DNA of 39,368 bases from a virus: the IMG/VR virus record IMGVR_UViG_3300033233_000088, positions 1 to 39,368 of that record; one strand, written 5' to 3'. The position numbers and the translations under genes were made by a program. Below, piece after piece: positions 4,876-39,368 of the stretch (positions are counted from its first letter, which is position 1; each line of letters opens with the position of its first letter). Under the pieces are notes generated by a model that saw only the letters and a list, made by a program, of their open reading frames with translations, ran no database searches and was not told the DNA's origin.

Positions 4876-5985
4876 ATGGCAACACCCGGAACATGGTTTG
4901 GATTACCTGATTTTGGAATAACTGAAGCGTTAACAGGATCATGGGGAAATCCAAAGCAAACACTTTTTAATAATCCATCAGTAAGTACTGTCGGATCAAA
5001 TTTTCCTCAAGGTTCATATTTTGGTAATCCTGCACCCGCTCCGACAGGGCCACAGAAACCGGTTCAAAAATTACCCGCTCCCCCGACAGGTGGTGGAGGT
5101 GCAGGTGGGAGTACTAATTTGTTTAATGGTCAAGCTTCCGGTGGAGCTGGTCCCGCACAACAAACGCAACAACAGCCATCGGGTCCTGATATGAGTGCGC
5201 TCAATGCCGGATATGACGCATACACGCAACAGCTTAACGATATGCTCAATACTGGCCTTCCCGGTCAACGGGCTGGTCAGGAACAGATAACGAACGCGTC
5301 GTACAATCAGGGAGTCAATCAGCTTGGTACACAACGAACCCAAAGTCAGCAATCTGTTGAACAATCAAAAGCTGCAAACCTGAAAGACTTAGCAGGAAAT
5401 GTTAAAAATCTCTTTACGGCAGGAAATATCAACCTTGGGGCCCGCGGAGCCGGTGATTCAAGTGCTGCAAATCAATATAGCTATGCAGTAACTAAGATGG
5501 GTACTAAAGCACGGGGAGATATCAATACACAGGCAACAGACCGGTTAAACCAAATCAATGATATTTTTAATTCAGAAATTAGCAGGCTTGAGACAGAAAA
5601 GAATACCCGTATGGGTCAGATTGCCGATTGGTTTAATGGAGCACAAAATCAGATTCGACAACAGATAGGCGCTACCGGACTTGCCAGAGGCAAAGATGTT
5701 CAACAGTTGGCTCAACAGGCGTACAATGTTGCACTACAGGCGATGCAGCAGTTACAGACAGAACAGGCAAACCGCCGGTCAACACTTGAAACATGGGCTA
5801 TGAATAATGCGAAAGATGTTCAAACTCTTGTTGCAAATATGCAGCAAGCAAGTCAATTACCTGCTTTTGGCGGTATTCAAAGCGGAATGCCGCAACAGGA
5901 TCAAATGCAAAGCGGTGTTATTCCTGTTGGATATGGGACAAACGACGGTCAGAAAAGAGACATATTCAGAAATGTAACAGGATGA
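4876..5985 (+). CDS. Gln/Gly-rich virion protein, unknown
   Basis: 369 residues. The first ~110 residues are low-complexity (Pro, Gly, Gln, Asn). Residues ~110-330 are rich in Gln and Ala with long predicted helices (Q-S-Q-Q-S-V-E-Q-S-K-A and later A-Q-Q-A-Y-N-V-A-L-Q-A-M-Q-Q), and the end is again disordered. It lies between the small basic protein and the 1249-residue ejection-type protein, a position where T7-like phages keep internal virion proteins. A core or internal virion role is therefore plausible but inferred from position and composition only. Confidence 0.6.
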   Translation: MATPGTWFGLPDFGITEALTGSWGNPKQTLFNNPSVSTVGSNFPQGSYFGNPAPAPTGPQKPVQKLPAPPTGGGGAGGSTNLFNGQASGGAGPAQQTQQQPSGPDMSALNAGYDAYTQQLNDMLNTGLPGQRAGQEQITNASYNQGVNQLGTQRTQSQQSVEQSKAANLKDLAGNVKNLFTAGNINLGARGAGDSSAANQYSYAVTKMGTKARGDINTQATDRLNQINDIFNSEISRLETEKNTRMGQIADWFNGAQNQIRQQIGATGLARGKDVQQLAQQAYNVALQAMQQLQTEQANRRSTLETWAMNNAKDVQTLVANMQQASQLPAFGGIQSGMPQQDQMQSGVIPVGYGTNDGQKRDIFRNVTG

Positions 5986-17485: not shown

Positions 17486-17659
17486 ATGGTAGATTCCAAG
17501 GCAGTCGTCCACACAGTCAGGTCTAAGATTGTGGGATTCTGTACTAATTGTTCGTTGCCGATCCATAAGGGAGAAAAACTACGAACCCTGACATCCAGTT
17601 TAGGGGGTAAGTACAAGCTGTGTTACCCGTGTAGTCTGCGGTATAATTTTAGGGGTTGA
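17486..17659 (+). CDS. 57-residue zinc-ribbon protein
   Basis: ATG 17486 to TGA 17657-17659. The product carries two Cys pairs, G-F-C-T-N-C (~18-23) and L-C-Y-P-C-S (~45-50), separated by 25 residues with basic and beta-prone sequence: a small zinc ribbon. Such proteins in phages are often transcription or host-takeover factors, but nothing specific can be said. No clear ribosome site precedes it (AAGAAA at 17475). The stop codon overlaps the TTGACA of the early promoter, which fits tight packing of a real gene. Confidence 0.55.
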   Translation: MVDSKAVVHTVRSKIVGFCTNCSLPIHKGEKLRTLTSSLGGKYKLCYPCSLRYNFRG

Positions 17660-17684
17660 CAAAAGACATATAAAGATATATAAA
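17656..17684 (+). promoter_or_regulatory. Strong sigma70-type early promoter
   Basis: TTGACA (17656-17661), 17 bases, TATAAA (17679-17684): a near-consensus promoter at the head of the replication block. Transcription would start near 17691. The following GCTAGTAG...GCTACT stretch (17691-17707) includes a small dyad (AGTAG/CTACT) that could be an operator. Confidence 0.75.
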
Positions 17685-17735
17685 ATAATTGCTAGTAGGA
17701 AAGCTACTGGGTGCTAACAAGCAAAAGTATTGCAT

Positions 17736-17803
17736 AAACGTATCATAAGGGTGCGTATTCAGTTGCAATACGCTGGACGCACACCCTTTAGATACGTTTT
17801 TTT
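17736..17803 (+). terminator. Long leader hairpin with U7 tract touching the start codon (attenuator-like)
   Basis: AAACGTATC (17736-17744) pairs perfectly with GATACGTTT (17791-17799). Inside, AAGGGTG (17747-17753) pairs with CACCCTT (17782-17788), and the apex can fold as GCGTATT/AATACGC (17753-17759/17767-17773) or as GTGCGT/ACGCAC (17751-17756/17777-17782). The seven T at 17797-17803 end at the ATG at 17804. It lies ~45 bases below the promoter start, so transcripts may end here unless an antitermination event occurs. Confidence 0.7.
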
Positions 17804-18040
17804 ATGCTTCCATTCGTTAGCGTCGCACTAAAAGTTGCTGAATCAATACAGATTGCAGATCAAAAAGGCCGGTCTATCCTTATGATGTTTGCAAAACGAT
17901 ACTCCCCAGAAAAGATGGGAAAGATTGTCAATACTGCAAAAAGATTCTCTTGGTGGCAGATGAACCCTCAAGCTGCATTTATGAAAGCTGTTGGTTTGGT
18001 CAATAAAGAAGAAAAGGAGGCACTTCATGCAAAAACTTAA
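17804..18040 (+). CDS. Small early protein, unknown
   Basis: 78 residues, ATG 17804 directly after the U-tract; no Shine-Dalgarno. The product is helical and basic (S-I-L-M-M-F-A-K-R-Y-S-P-E-K-M-G-K-I-V and F-S-W-W-Q-M-N-P-Q-A). Its last 14 bases overlap the initiator gene, whose GGAGG lies inside it, so the two are coupled. First-in-operon early genes of this size are often regulators, but no DNA-binding motif is clear. Confidence 0.65.
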   Translation: MLPFVSVALKVAESIQIADQKGRSILMMFAKRYSPEKMGKIVNTAKRFSWWQMNPQAAFMKAVGLVNKEEKEALHAKT

Positions 18041-22024: not shown

Positions 22025-22633
22025 ATGAATAAAAAAGCCCTGCTTTCCGAATACCGAAGTACACAGGTCCGCGTTAGAGATCTAAGGTGGAGACTAGAGG
22101 ATATAGCGTATATATCATTTTGTCTGGTTATGGTTTTCTCGTTCGCACTCCATCTCAGAAGCCTTCTCCCAGCCCCCACAAAGCCCGTAGACGGCTCAAT
22201 GACAGCCGGAGGGATCATTTCACCGGTGTGGGCGAGTTCGAGCACGACTATACCCGGTCTATTGTCCCCGTCTCTCTCCCCAACCCCCCGTCCGGAAACG
22301 GTTGACGATCTCGTCACAAAGTATGCAGACCGCTACGGATCCAGTATCGACGAAAAAGCCAAAATCAAGGTCATGCTTCACTTCTTGCTCTATAGAGAAT
22401 CCCGCTATGGACGGGATACCGGATGCGGTGACGGCGGCAAGGCCTGCGGTCCTGCCCAATTCTGGCAGGAGACGTATGTAGCCCTTCGTACCGAGATGAT
22501 TACCAAGGGTCTGACGACTGAGCTGGGTAGTCGGGAGAATATGCACGATGCTATACAGACGACAGCCTATGCGTTATCTACCGGACGGGCGGTAGCATGG
22601 GGACCTATATTAAGAAAGGAAATAAAATTATGA
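22025..22633 (+). CDS. Membrane-anchored lysozyme/transglycosylase-like protein
   Basis: 202 residues. Residues ~28-46 form one hydrophobic span after a basic N-terminus (signal anchor: I-A-Y-I-S-F-C-L-V-M-V-F-S-F-A-L). A Ser/Pro/Thr-rich linker (~55-92) leads to a lytic-transglycosylase-like domain: catalytic Glu125 in Y-R-E-S-R-Y-G, then G-C-G-D-G-G-K-A-C-G-P-A-Q-F (~133-146) and a final helix with the Ala-Tyr pattern of this fold. It would cut glycan strands from the outer face of the membrane. It is far from the CHAP lysis cassette and among early genes, so a role in cell-wall remodelling or superinfection control is as likely as lysis. Confidence 0.7.
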   Translation: MNKKALLSEYRSTQVRVRDLRWRLEDIAYISFCLVMVFSFALHLRSLLPAPTKPVDGSMTAGGIISPVWASSSTTIPGLLSPSLSPTPRPETVDDLVTKYADRYGSSIDEKAKIKVMLHFLLYRESRYGRDTGCGDGGKACGPAQFWQETYVALRTEMITKGLTTELGSRENMHDAIQTTAYALSTGRAVAWGPILRKEIKL

Positions 22634-23118
22634 ATGCACAACACGAAGCAGACTATCAGCGATTACTCGATAAAGATAGAAAATATAAGGCTCACCATAA
22701 GGCCTACCATAAGGCCTACCAGCAGAGACCGGAGGTTAAGGCCTACCATAAGGCCTACCAGCAGAGACCGGAGGTTAAGGCCTACCAGAAGGCCTACCAC
22801 CAGAGACCGGAGGTTAAGGCCTACCGGAAGGCCTACCACCAGAGACCGGAGGTTAAGGCCTACCGGAAGGCCTACCACCAGAGACCGGAGGTTAAGGCCT
22901 ACCGGAAGGCCTACCAGAAGGCCTACCATAAGGCCTACGATCAGAGACCGGAAGTTAAGGCCTACCGGAAGGCCTACCACCAGAGACCGGAGGCCAAGGC
23001 CTACCAGAAGGCCTACCAGAAGGCCTACTACTTCAGAAAAATTGACCCAGCAACGAAAAAAGTACGAATCATAAAATACAAAAAATTACTGGAATTATAT
23101 GGCAACCAAGGATTATAG
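22630..23118 (+). CDS. Repeat protein with A-Y-x-K-A-Y / Q-R-P-E-V-K units
   Basis: 162 residues, ATG 22630 in an ATGA overlap with the lysozyme-like gene (an in-frame ATG at 22597 is inside that gene). After ~20 residues, seven 12-13-residue units combine K-A-Y-(H/Q/R)-K-A-Y with (Q/H/D)-Q-R-P-E-(V/A)-K up to ~133, and a basic helical end follows. The composition (Lys, Tyr, Arg) is very biased and suggests RNA or DNA binding, or contact with an acidic surface. Function unknown. Confidence 0.7.
   Translation: MNAQHEADYQRLLDKDRKYKAHHKAYHKAYQQRPEVKAYHKAYQQRPEVKAYQKAYHQRPEVKAYRKAYHQRPEVKAYRKAYHQRPEVKAYRKAYQKAYHKAYDQRPEVKAYRKAYHQRPEAKAYQKAYQKAYYFRKIDPATKKVRIIKYKKLLELYGNQGL
22687..23030 (+). repeat. 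Coding tandem repeat, 36-39 bp units with 12-bp subunits
   Basis: The block is made of AAGGCCTACCxx subunits and the spacer CAGAGACCGGAGGTT. Units are close to identical, so expansion is recent. It stays in one frame throughout and is coding; it is not a CRISPR array because the intervals are themselves repeats. Confidence 0.9.
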
Positions 23119-25437: not shown

Positions 25438-25655
25438 AATACAAAACAATCCGAGACTATCTGAGGGAAATACTACAAGAGAATGGGGGTTATGATATGG
25501 ACAAAGACATTGACTCCATCCTCACCATGCTAAAGGAACAGAAACCGAAGAAGCATCCTACTCAATGGTTAAAAGATACAGACAGTATATACATGGATGG
25601 CTATCGTAAAGGCTACAACTCCTACGCTGATGAACTGGAGAAGAAATTAACATGA
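25434..25655 (+). CDS. Small helical protein, unknown
   Basis: 73 residues, ATG 25434 in an ATGA overlap with the nuclease gene and another ATGA overlap at its end. Charged and helical (I-R-D-Y-L-R-E-I-L-Q-E, D-G-Y-R-K-G-Y-N-S-Y-A-D-E-L). No family recognised; by position a partner of the nuclease or methyltransferase. Confidence 0.6.
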   Translation: MKYKTIRDYLREILQENGGYDMDKDIDSILTMLKEQKPKKHPTQWLKDTDSIYMDGYRKGYNSYADELEKKLT

Positions 25656-26281
25656 AAATATTAAATTTATATTGTGGTATAGGCGGTAATAGGAAATTAT
25701 GGGGTGATGACCATGAGATTACGGCGGTAGAGCTGGATTCGAATATAGCAAGGATATACCAGAACTTTTTTCCAAATGATATAGTTGTCGTTACCGATGC
25801 ACACCAGTATCTTTTAGACCATTATGACGAGTTTGATTTTATCTGGGCAAGTCCACCATGTCCAAGCCACAGTCGAGTGAGGCGAGGGTTGGGAGTATTG
25901 GCACGAAAACAGAACAAAGCTCTATATCCGGACATGAGACTGTATGAGGAGATTTTACTCCTACAGGGATATTTCAGCGGAAAGTTTGTGGTCGAGAATG
26001 TAATCAGTTGGTATCAACCATTGATTCATGCTATAGAATTGCAACGGCATTATTTCTGGGTTAATTTTCCGATTAGGAATATTACAATGGATGCTGATTC
26101 TATTGAACATGGAACGGTTGAGTTTTGGGAAAAACAACTGGGATTTGATTTGTCACCGTATCATGGTATTGAAAAAAGGAAAGTATTACGGAATTGTGTT
26201 CGTCCGGAGCTGGGATTACATATTCTCAACGAAGCATTAAATAAAACGGAATACATACACGAACAAGCAATATTATTTTAA
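25652..26281 (+). CDS. Short C5-cytosine DNA methyltransferase
   Basis: 209 residues, ATG 25652 in an ATGA overlap. Motif I is N-L-Y-C-G-I-G-G (5-12), motif IV is S-P-P-C-P-S (67-72) with catalytic Cys70, motif VI is V-E-N-V (114-117). C-terminal motifs are reduced and the target-recognition region is very short, since typical enzymes have 300 or more residues. Small phage forms of this type exist and usually protect phage DNA from host restriction. It lacks a cognate endonuclease gene here. Confidence 0.85.
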   Translation: MKILNLYCGIGGNRKLWGDDHEITAVELDSNIARIYQNFFPNDIVVVTDAHQYLLDHYDEFDFIWASPPCPSHSRVRRGLGVLARKQNKALYPDMRLYEEILLLQGYFSGKFVVENVISWYQPLIHAIELQRHYFWVNFPIRNITMDADSIEHGTVEFWEKQLGFDLSPYHGIEKRKVLRNCVRPELGLHILNEALNKTEYIHEQAILF

Positions 26282-26566
26282 CCCCCTCCGACCAGTCAGG
26301 GGAGGGAGATTGAAAGCTGTGGGTGGCATTGAAAGATGAAGGGAGCCTGACCTGCGAAAGGGCAAGTGTTCTGCGTAAGCAGTTTCGAATCTAAGATAAA
26401 AATACAGCAATCTCGCCAGTAGTGTATACCCTACTCCCACAGTTTCCAGTCTCTCTGAGTGAGTTAGGGAAAAAAGGAATAGGAGGTATTACTAATCCCG
26501 AAAGTGGTAAAAGACCTATATTATAAGTCATCTTATGCAAAAACTAGCCTCAGGGAATGAAAAAAA
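26282..26566 (+). ncRNA. Candidate structured RNA upstream of the terminase genes
   Basis: The 285-base gap has no gene. A helix joins 26306-26323 to 26436-26453 (17 bp with two single bulges; core CTGTGGG/CCCACAG). Inside it TGGC-ATTG (26324-26331) pairs with CAAT-GCCA (26408-26418, three-base bulge) and GTAG/CTAC (26419-26422/26431-26434) forms a second arm, giving a three-way junction. A GUAA-tetraloop hairpin (26371-26382) lies within the long arm. A CCCTCC/GGAGGG hairpin (26284-26306) precedes. AGGAGGT at 26481-26487 has no start codon at the proper distance. No terminator U-tract seen. Class unknown. Confidence 0.6.
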
Positions 26567-26788
26567 ATGATTAAATTTGACGCAGAAATTGTCAAAGTAG
26601 AAGCGAAAAAAACGGTTAGCATGGACCGGTTGTATAGAATTATATTGGAAACAAACCAGCCCAGTGTGCTACAATTGGAGAAGTATATAGCAGAAGATAC
26701 AGTTATAGTGGAGGTACACGATGGACAACCAAGTAGAAACGATAGTGCCGACACAGGAATCACAACCAGTACCGTTACCGACAGTTGA
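26567..26788 (+). CDS. Small unknown protein before terminase
   Basis: 73 residues, ATG 26567 after an A-run; no strong ribosome site. The first ~53 residues look like a small alpha/beta domain (M-I-K-F-D-A-E-I-V-K-V-E-A-K-K-T, L-Y-R-I-I-L-E-T-N, E-D-T-V-I-V-E-V). The end overlaps the small terminase gene by 68 bases. Unrecognised. Confidence 0.55.
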   Translation: MIKFDAEIVKVEAKKTVSMDRLYRIILETNQPSVLQLEKYIAEDTVIVEVHDGQPSRNDSADTGITTSTVTDS

Positions 26789-27317
26789 ACCAGCACCAGA
26801 GGCTACCCAGGAAATTTCTGTCTCTCCTGAGACAGTACAGGAGCTTCCAGTTGATGCTAAGCCAGAAGAACCTATAGTACAGCCTCAACCAGAACCAACA
26901 AGTGAGATAGTGGAACCGGTAACACCAATAGAAGAACCAAAAAAAGAAGAAAAAAGAGCAGAAGAACCAACCGATAAAAATCTCGATTTGAAATTAAAGT
27001 TTCTCGAATATATGCGGGATTTACCAGTCCAAAAACTTGCTGCTGGCTGGATTGCCAAACACGAAGATACGATCACAGATTGGAAGCGAGAGGACCCGTG
27101 GTTTTCCGACCAGATCGAAATTGCAAAATCGGAGTGGGCAAAAAAGACATCACGAGGCGTTAAATCGAAAGAATGGCTCTTGGAACGGGTCATGAAAGAT
27201 CACTTTGCAGAACGAAAAGAATTGACAGGGAAAGATGGGAAGGACTTACCTGTTCCTATCATGCAATTAGATGTATCAGGAAACGACAGCAACACAGAAA
27301 ATAAAGTCACTGAATAA
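26721..27317 (+). CDS. Small terminase subunit-like protein with acidic Pro-rich N-terminus
   Basis: 198 residues, ATG 26721 with GGAGG (26710-26714) seven bases upstream. Residues ~1-80 are low-complexity Pro/Glu/Thr. Residues ~85-165 contain a helix-turn-helix-like segment (L-P-V-Q-K-L-A-A-G-W-I-A-K-H-E-D-T-I-T-D-W) and further helices, a pattern seen in phage small terminases. The large terminase gene follows and overlaps by 47 bases, which is the best support. It would recognise the packaging site on phage DNA. Confidence 0.6.
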   Translation: MDNQVETIVPTQESQPVPLPTVEPAPEATQEISVSPETVQELPVDAKPEEPIVQPQPEPTSEIVEPVTPIEEPKKEEKRAEEPTDKNLDLKLKFLEYMRDLPVQKLAAGWIAKHEDTITDWKREDPWFSDQIEIAKSEWAKKTSRGVKSKEWLLERVMKDHFAERKELTGKDGKDLPVPIMQLDVSGNDSNTENKVTE

Positions 27318-28443
27318 ACGGATACGCGGAGTATCCGGTGGAACCAGCGCCTCAAAGACTATTTCAATTCTCCTTTGGTTGATTGCCTATGCGCAGACAC
27401 ATAATCATGAGGTTATTAGCGTAGTATCAGAATCATTTCCTCATCTGAAGCGCGGTGCTATTCGAGACTTCTTGTCCATAATGGTAGAGCATCGCTATTT
27501 TATCGATGATCGCTGGAATAAGACGGATTATATTTATCAATTTGAGACGGGAAGCAAGATAGAGTTTTTTAGTGCCGATCAACCCGGCAAGGTGAGAGGT
27601 CCCCGGCGTGATGTATTATTCATCAACGAAGCTAATAATATATCGTATGAGACATACCTACAGTTGGAAGTCCGTACCCGTAAGATAATATGGCTTGACT
27701 GGAATCCGGTCAATGAATTTTGGTTTTATACGGAAGTTAAAAATTTAGATAATGTTGATTTTTTAACGCTAAATTACAAAGACAATGAAGGACTGGAATC
27801 AGATAGCGTTAGAGCACTTGAAGCACATAAAGTTAATGCGAGCTGGTGGAAAGTGTATGGTGAAGGACAACTGGGAGATGTCGAAAGCAAGATTTACAGG
27901 GAGTGGCAAGTCATAGATGAGGTTCCGCATGAGGCACGCCTTGAACGGTATGGGCTAGATTTTGGGTATACGAATGATCCGGCAGCCCTCGTTGGTATTT
28001 ATTACTATAACGGCGGATATATTTTTGACGAGGTGTTATATAGAAAGGGAATGACGAATCAGCAGATAGCAGATATGATTAAAAATATACCATACGCATT
28101 GACGATTGCCGACAGTGCTGAACCAAAAAGCATTGACGAAATAGGAAGTTATGGTGTTTCGATTATTGCCGCAGTCAAGGGAAAAGATAGTGTCCTTCAT
28201 GGTATCCAGTATGTGCAGGGACAACGAATATCGGTTACAAAGCGAAGTCTAAATCTTTTGAAGGAATACCGAAATTATTTGTGGATGAGCGATAAAGAGG
28301 ATAAAATAATCAATACACCAGAAGAGGGATTTAACCATTGCATGGATAGCGTACGGTATGCGATGGTTAACCTTCGCGGACATACCGACGATGTAAGTGA
28401 TATCCCTGATGATACACGAAGATTTCAACAGAGATTTTATTAA
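27271..28443 (+). CDS. terL: Terminase large subunit
   Basis: 390 residues, ATG 27271, with an N-terminus (T-T-A-T-Q-K-I) as in related proteins. Walker A G-G-T-S-A-S-K-T is at 23-30; a Walker B-like strand is V-L-F-I-N-E-A-N-N (~114-122). The nuclease half starts with G-L-D-F-G-Y-T-N-D-P-A-A-L (~228-240), then I-A-D-S-A-E-P-K and the final H-C-M-D-S-V-R-Y-A. It is the ATP-driven packaging motor and DNA cutter. Length is at the short end of the family but all motifs are present. Confidence 0.95.
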   Translation: MYQETTATQKIKSLNKRIRGVSGGTSASKTISILLWLIAYAQTHNHEVISVVSESFPHLKRGAIRDFLSIMVEHRYFIDDRWNKTDYIYQFETGSKIEFFSADQPGKVRGPRRDVLFINEANNISYETYLQLEVRTRKIIWLDWNPVNEFWFYTEVKNLDNVDFLTLNYKDNEGLESDSVRALEAHKVNASWWKVYGEGQLGDVESKIYREWQVIDEVPHEARLERYGLDFGYTNDPAALVGIYYYNGGYIFDEVLYRKGMTNQQIADMIKNIPYALTIADSAEPKSIDEIGSYGVSIIAAVKGKDSVLHGIQYVQGQRISVTKRSLNLLKEYRNYLWMSDKEDKIINTPEEGFNHCMDSVRYAMVNLRGHTDDVSDIPDDTRRFQQRFY

Positions 28444-38884: not shown

Positions 38885-39338
38885 AACATTGCTCCGATAT
38901 GCCAAAAAGGATAAACAGATTAGCCTATTAACAGGAGATTTAGGGTTTGGGATGTGGGATGAGTTTCGTGATACATTACCGGATCAGTTCATCAACTGTG
39001 GAGCCAGTGAACAGGCCATGCTTGATATTGCAGTAGGGTTAGCACTTGTAGGGAAAAAGCCGTTTGTTTATACAATCACACCATTTTTTTATCGGGCATT
39101 TGAGACTCTCAGAACCTATATAAATCATGAAAATATAAATGTAAAATTGATAGGGTCAGGTCGGGATAAATCATATATACATGATGGTTTTTCTCATGAC
39201 GCAACTGATTTTAAGGGTTTTCTTGATTTATTACCTAATATAAAGCAATATTGGCCTGAAGAAAAAGAAGAAATACCAAGTATAGTTAAAGATATACTGC
39301 AGTCTGATAAGCCATCGTGTATAATATTGAAACGATGA
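38865..39338 (+). CDS. Transketolase-like protein, C-terminal (pyrimidine) subunit, short; 3' end AT-rich
   Basis: 157 residues from ATG 38865, overlapping the N-subunit. G-D-L-G-F-G (~20-25), N-C-G-A-S-E-Q-A-M-L-D-I-A-V-G-L-A (~42-58) with the catalytic Glu, and G-F-S-H-D-A-T-D (~106-113) are the pyrimidine-binding domain. Free-standing C-subunits usually have ~300 residues; the third (C-terminal) domain is missing here. From ~39117 the gene turns AT-rich, like the HNH gene that follows. It ends in ATGA with that gene. Confidence 0.85.
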   Translation: MRALFAKTLLRYAKKDKQISLLTGDLGFGMWDEFRDTLPDQFINCGASEQAMLDIAVGLALVGKKPFVYTITPFFYRAFETLRTYINHENINVKLIGSGRDKSYIHDGFSHDATDFKGFLDLLPNIKQYWPEEKEEIPSIVKDILQSDKPSCIILKR

Positions 39339-39368
39339 GTTTTGTTAAAGGTCAAGGTCAATTAAATA
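39170..39368 (+). repeat. Terminal redundancy with 1-199
   Basis: 197 of 199 bases match the start of the window in the same order. The two mismatches (39297 C/T, 39299 G/A) are in one Leu codon and silent. The overlap closes the contig to about 39,169 bp. Confidence 0.95.
39335..39368 (+). CDS. Start of the HNH gene (partial, repeat of 166-199)
   Basis: ATG 39335 overlaps the transketolase stop; the 34 bases are identical to 166-199. It is the same gene as at 166-621, cut by the end of the contig. Confidence 0.85.
   Translation, partial: MSFVKGQGQLN

Follow-up and report, generated by a model that had tools for sequence, protein, structure and literature searches.

YrlA, a bacterial Y RNA, joins a long terminal stem to a tRNA-like module, and helices processed by RNase III occur in phage polycistronic messages, e.g. 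in the T7 early region. In phage HK022, antitermination involves the put RNA. Gaps directly upstream of terS are a usual location of cos/pac sites, and the phi29 packaging ATPase, whose motor carries a packaging RNA, is of the gp16 type. In staphylococcal phages, structured and sequence-diverse cabRNAs from terS/terL trigger CBASS and are described as having RNase III-sensitive double-stranded parts (PMC10686824).

The putative RNA analyzed here resembles cabRNAs in being a structured phage RNA of the terminase region that is diverse in sequence. However, cabRNAs originate inside the coding terS/terL, whereas this element occupies a non-coding gap ahead of terS. It belongs to the IMG/VR record IMGVR_UViG_3300033233_000088, a near-complete tailed-phage genome of 39,368 nt that was analyzed as a whole (hereafter the window). 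The ends of the record (1–199 and 39170–39368) share a sequence of 199 nt that differs at 2 positions, the first 127 nt being exact. Because of this overlap, the genome is probably complete and circular, with about 39,169 bp; the record itself carries no completeness value.

The gap runs from the end of the methyltransferase ORF to the beginning of ORF 26567–26788. As the first-pass annotation stated, its 285 bases are gene-free, and it is the largest intergenic gap of the genome, the next-largest in the ORF table being 191, 149, and 144 nt (short ORFs fill the 191-nt one). The flanking genes are all on the + strand, in the order methyltransferase, gap, 73-aa gene, terS, and terL, and the features of the locus are as follows.

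25652–26281, + strand: C5 cytosine-specific DNA methyltransferase-like gene, 209 aa (PF00145, E = 1.8e-06; phrog_363)
26282–26566, + strand: gene-free gap holding the RNA element (ORF table)
26284–26306, + strand: 5' hairpin CCCUCC/GGAGGG directly before P1 (pair probability 0.82–0.84)
26303–26323, + strand: 5' arm of the long basal helix, P1 (helix scoring, pair probability)
26371–26382, + strand: hairpin with a GNRA loop (GUAA), CUGC-GUAA-GCAG (pair probability 0.84–0.88)
26436–26456, + strand: 3' arm of the long basal helix, P1 (helix scoring, pair probability)
26482–26486, + strand: Shine-Dalgarno-like GGAGG with no start codon at the usual distance
26535–26570, + strand: possible 11-codon ORF, seen by eye, overlapping the next start codon as ATGA
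26567–26788, + strand: conserved small gene of 73 aa that separates the RNA from terS (tblastn relatives)
26721–27317, + strand: terS, terminase small subunit (phrog_4044, E = 4.5e-05)
27271–28443, + strand: terL, terminase large subunit (PF17288, E = 1.7e-11; PF04466, E = 6.7e-08)

P1 pairs at 17 of 18 positions (26306–26323 with 26436–26453), in line with the 17-bp outer helix that had been read by eye, and extends to 21 positions (17 Watson–Crick, 3 G.U, and 1 A.C) with its arms 112 nt apart. It is the second-best inverted-repeat helix of the whole window, with a score of 40.5 that none of 30 dinucleotide shuffles of the window reaches (best shuffle, 40.0), and its pair probability is near 1 over most of the helix. 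It is very probable that a folded RNA, with this unusually long helix at its base, is encoded in the gap.

The proposed GNRA hairpin is likewise recovered, at the pair probability listed above. The other two interior arms fare poorly, i.e. the inner helix UGGC/GCCA has a pair probability of only 0.04–0.12 and the small second arm AGUAG/CUACU of only 0.14–0.20. Forcing them gives −70.4 vs −77.6 kcal/mol, about 7 kcal/mol worse, and the three-way junction drawn from them is one of several possible interior folds and not the favored one. The first-pass annotation had also suggested a switch in which the 5' CCCTCC pairs either with GGAGGG at 26301 or with the orphan GGAGG at 26482. The former pairing stands as the 5' hairpin (26284–26289 with 26301–26306), but for the latter (26285–26289 with 26482–26486) the probability is 0.00. 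The folding ensemble does not support an RNA switch, because the two exclusive pairings are not of comparable probability (0.82–0.84 vs 0.00). An alternative pairing of 26306–26312 with CAATCTC at 26408 was rejected (probability 0.00). By eye, ATACA/TGTAT in the window forms a candidate kissing or pseudoknot pairing. The overall folding energy of the gap is not exceptional: the fold of −77.6 kcal/mol has a z-score of −1.59, with 16 of 200 shuffles equally stable, and the best local fold that touches the gap is surpassed in z by 337 others in the window, a number that includes overlapping folds.

On the + strand of the gap, neither a sigma-70-like promoter nor a terminator was found, and the RNA is therefore expected within a read-through transcript from the methyltransferase gene. 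That gene stops directly before the gap and has a homologue in the related locus L003 (60% identical). Short antisense ORFs overlapping the gap (55, 49, and 87 aa) have no PHROG match at E ≤ 0.01, the best being 0.19. Downstream, the 73-aa ORF has tblastn relatives in L404 (E = 1.8e-06) and L285 (E = 1.5e-04), and the L404 homologue (5504–5683) immediately precedes terS, just like the window gene. Because of these relatives, we regard it on sequence grounds as a real conserved small gene, one without a family. Relatives of terS precede terL in L400, L404, L284, and others. Pfam scans of 30 window proteins found no reverse transcriptase and no Ro/TROVE protein.

Two other stretches of the window are also strongly folded. 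At 17657–17803, a promoter-like TTGACA-17-TATAAA, recognized by eye, is followed by such a stretch; in the local-fold scan of the window, 17665–17825 has a z of −5.9, and the stretch ends in a hairpin and then TTTTTTT. It resembles a short RNA or an attenuated leader of the early operon, at whose start it stands. Coding repeats of ORF 22597–23118 (KAYHKAYQQRPEV-like) contain the local fold that is strongest in the genome, 22739–22976.

Searches with covariance models and with the gap sequence do not assign the RNA to a family. Rfam 15 yields no match to the window at the gathering score and nothing sensible at E ≤ 5, where 3 matches (E 1.1–3.2) are far below the cut-off and on the opposite strand. 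At E ≤ 10, the window has no match to the tRNA model RF00005 or the YrlA model RF02553, and ARAGORN calls no gene in it. These results agree with the earlier statement that the RNA falls in no known class and, together with the long helix in the largest gap, support an unassigned structured RNA. Neither blastn of the gap against 50,697 phage records nor exact 15–19-mers in 2.9 million viral contigs (0, 45, and 87 stretches) revealed a homologue, and blastn and nhmmer within the fetched loci (7.86 Mb) gave nothing significant. The best double-arm candidates, in L190, L191, L193, and L164, were rejected, as they resemble a single coding stretch that is repeated, and they fold differently. Judged by these searches, the RNA is an orphan by sequence.

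We used terL as the query for finding relatives. A TerL search of genome contigs with the window sequence alone gave no match, and a terS search of viral contigs gave none either, while the TerL alignment A1 retrieved 80 loci from genome contigs, the best being a Micrarchaeota MAG (68%). The TerL relatives comprise 80 loci plus 70 further ones from viral contigs, and these 80 from genomes. The contig of L283, binned as Micrarchaeota, carries a TerL 68% identical to that of the window, and its phage or bin assignment is uncertain.

In a minority of the TerL relatives, the region upstream of terL holds other RNAs with a long P1, at most three in any one genome; on this type of element, we found no published work on phages in a limited literature collection. 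Single elements occur in L003 (5210–5294), L006 (5130–5234), and L371, whereas L395 and L432 have three each and L384, L431, and L019 two each. In L033, three stand in a row (907–1035, 1034–1134, and 1151–1252); the interiors within 907–1252 have diverged while the outer flanks are similar (AGGGTTT...AAGCTCT). By eye, a 7-bp loop-loop pairing is possible in L033 II, and L019B has a candidate kissing or pseudoknot pairing. A further structured stretch in L395 (1660–1893), seemingly non-coding, runs through its second long-P1 element. L432 3909–4649 forms an RNA island in which a true tRNA-Asn and a tRNA-Leu-like element occur together with unassigned DNA and two adjoining elements of the long-P1 type.

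We counted helices with a score of at least 32 and a loop of at least 45 nt, scoring G.U and A.C alike so that G.U was not favored. Upstream of terL there are 23 in 243,784 nt (95 loci; L009 and L022 dropped as tandem-like), compared with 2 to 8 in ten shuffles; downstream there are 9 in 434,372 nt. Without the tandem-repeat loci L009, L022, L404, and L418, 22 upstream helices remain, 14 of them mostly outside ORFs. Such a mostly non-ORF helix is present in 12 of 91 loci, the window included, and absent at this threshold from 79, some of the 91 holding little DNA upstream of terL. The 163 non-ORF gaps upstream of terL (39,321 nt in 91 of the 95 loci) hold 12 helices vs a mean of 0.45 (range 0–3) in 20 shuffles. 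When non-coding DNA on both sides of terL is compared, the excess is modest (14 in 46.8 kb upstream vs 3 in 26.9 kb downstream). One counted upstream locus, L287, is apparently a bacterial chromosome with an AT-rich helix. The elements of L003, L006, and L371, as well as L033 III and L395b, score 29–31 and thus fall below the count threshold, and L134 and L141 are outside the counted TerL set.

On the sense strand, the upstream helices contain 53 G.U vs 27 A.C positions (21 helices, P = 0.005), or 50 vs 26 (P = 0.008) without the window, and the downstream helices 11 vs 18 (9 helices, P = 0.26); this count leaves out L009, L022, and two L418 helices. The preference for G.U on the sense strand upstream therefore points to + strand RNA as what is selected.

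One group of relatives combines a single conserved P1 with different interiors. The two elements of L019 have 23 + 20 nt of P1 in common and different interiors. L141 has the first L019 interior beside a 25-nt flank resembling that of the second L019 element, and L134 a third interior beside a 13-nt flank identical to that of the first. Among L019A, L141, L019B, and L134, P1 similarity has a z of at least 26 in 6 of 6 pairs, but the interiors are unrelated except in the pair L019A/L141. Because the flanks are short, interior swapping at fixed sites is no more than likely on this comparison.

Four elements (L019A, L141, L395a, and L432c) form a tRNA-Leu-like subfamily, recognizable by eye from a D-arm like that of tRNA-Leu and, in part, from a T-arm. 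Aligned to L019A, L395a has a z of 9.9 and L432c of 6.1, while the pair L395a/L432c does not exceed 4. When L019A, L395a, and L432c are aligned by junction distance, both partners have changed at 16 of 20 positions of P1 and the pairing is kept. In the examined loci, 4 of 5 matches to the Leu-tRNA D-arm motif are inside long-P1 elements, none of which ARAGORN calls, and the true tRNA-Asn of L432 adjoins its tRNA-Leu-like element. Two more distant TerL relatives, L068 (3098) and L075 (4697), have tRNA-Leu-like sequences with odd anticodon arms, again by eye.

L019A, L395a, and L432c thus resemble class II tRNAs (RF00005) in their D-arm, partial T-arm, and a helix at the place of the acceptor stem. 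They differ in stems extended to about 20 bp and, by eye, in having no usable anticodon arm, and the window RNA differs further in matching no tRNA model. The outline, a long terminal stem with a tRNA-like module, recalls YrlA. However, the YrlA model has no match at E ≤ 10 in the records of 9 of 10 relatives, just as in the window, and only two weak matches in the tenth, overlapping its tRNA-Asn; the scanned window proteins also include no Ro/TROVE partner.

Measured in the same way as its relatives, the window helix scores 39 in a gap upstream of terL with a non-ORF fraction of 1.0. Its interior shows no likeness above shuffles to the 19 other elements (best z, 1.7) and is not tRNA-like by model. 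Membership of the window RNA in the clade's long-P1 set, which we infer, therefore follows its outline and place, not its sequence.

Our preferred reading, held tentatively and at somewhat less than an even chance, is that 26303–26456 is an intercistronic RNA of about 150 nt that is cut out at P1 and is one of a fast-evolving long-P1 set. The sense-strand operon transcript would contain this structured RNA, delimited by the basal helix of about 20 bp, and RNAs of comparable outline stand between the early genes and terS in some related phages. RNase III could plausibly act on an intergenic helix of this length, about 20 bp, and excision at P1 with a stable product is therefore favored. Specifically, a double-strand-specific host nuclease, e.g. 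RNase III, would cut the transcript inside P1, which would split the messages of methyltransferase and terminase from each other and may also free a stable folded RNA; any trans function would then be carried by the interior rather than by P1. The T7-type processing helices are similar in being imperfect intergenic helices of about 20 bp on a single transcript, but the window element has a large, structured, and variable interior, and cleavage here is a prediction. A more elaborate version, which we consider quite unlikely, is an RNA island at the early/late boundary with interchangeable interiors on nuclease-cut P1 stems. Some interiors would be tRNA-Leu-derived and would diversify so as to decoy or inhibit host defences that target RNA (e.g. 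tRNA nucleases), and the window RNA would be a single-copy representative.

Excision with a stable product has to be weighed against a purely cis-acting role, in which P1 and the 5' hairpin are an element for processing, stability, or translation of the mRNA of the 26567 gene, terS, and terL, and no functional RNA is freed. ORF 26567 begins 110 nt and terS 264 nt beyond the end of the element, which is followed by the Shine-Dalgarno-like GGAGG, and both L019 elements directly precede the same AAGGAGGTGAAGATG start region. Yet this GGAGG is not beside a start codon and is not predicted to pair with the 5' CCCUCC, and a processing site needs no elaborate interior, whereas L019A is alike with L395a and L432c over long distances; we regard this role as unlikely, though a serious candidate. 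A leader-RNA antiterminator of the put kind, by which the late-operon RNA would make polymerase read through late terminators, fits the early/late junction seen in the gene order and a compact RNA of several stem-loops. It is improbable, more so than the island described above, given that no promoter lies in front, that relatives carry several different elements per genome, and that these have no sequence motif in common. Low probability, slightly above that of the antiterminator, also applies to a decayed or selfish tRNA-derived sequence, in which phage tRNA-like genes have extended acceptor stems and the window copy lost its tRNA features. The D-arm matches uncalled by ARAGORN and the neighboring tRNA-Asn speak for such an origin, but the tRNA model does not match the window RNA at E ≤ 10, and the almost perfect P1 is unexpected under pure decay.

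The position of the gap, non-coding and upstream of terS, is also where a DNA packaging element would be sought, i.e. a cos/pac site read by TerS with inverted repeats arising by chance. This option is about as doubtful as a tRNA-derived origin: the arms favor G.U over A.C both in the clade (53 vs 27) and in the window (3 vs 1), as RNA would; such a site has no need for arms 112 nt apart around a structured interior; and the distance of the relatives' helices to the downstream terL varies from 93 to about 3,000 nt. Position is likewise all that lies behind the packaging-related role that the earlier reading had floated. A motor RNA like the phi29 pRNA, also a phage RNA placed by packaging genes, is extremely improbable, because the packaging ATPase here is of another type, an ordinary TerS/TerL pair of the Terminase_3 kind (PF04466/PF17288, phrog_4044), no Rfam model matches, and most relatives have no element at the threshold used. 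A chance helix in a spacer would be consistent with the overall MFE z of only −1.6 and with 1 of 30 shuffled genomes coming within 0.5 of the P1 score. It is very improbable nonetheless, since the genome's second-best helix coincides with its largest gap and helices exceed shuffles clade-wide.

Taken alone, the window offers one strong helix without homologues, and the tRNA-like subfamily is the concrete entry point for models and experiments. The cabRNA example indicates that RNAs of the terminase region can matter to defence (PMC10686824). If the long-P1 set is real, sequence searches would be blind to such RNAs, as only their outline is kept, and uncultivated phages would carry modular structured RNAs that are absent from Rfam and are rapidly replaced.
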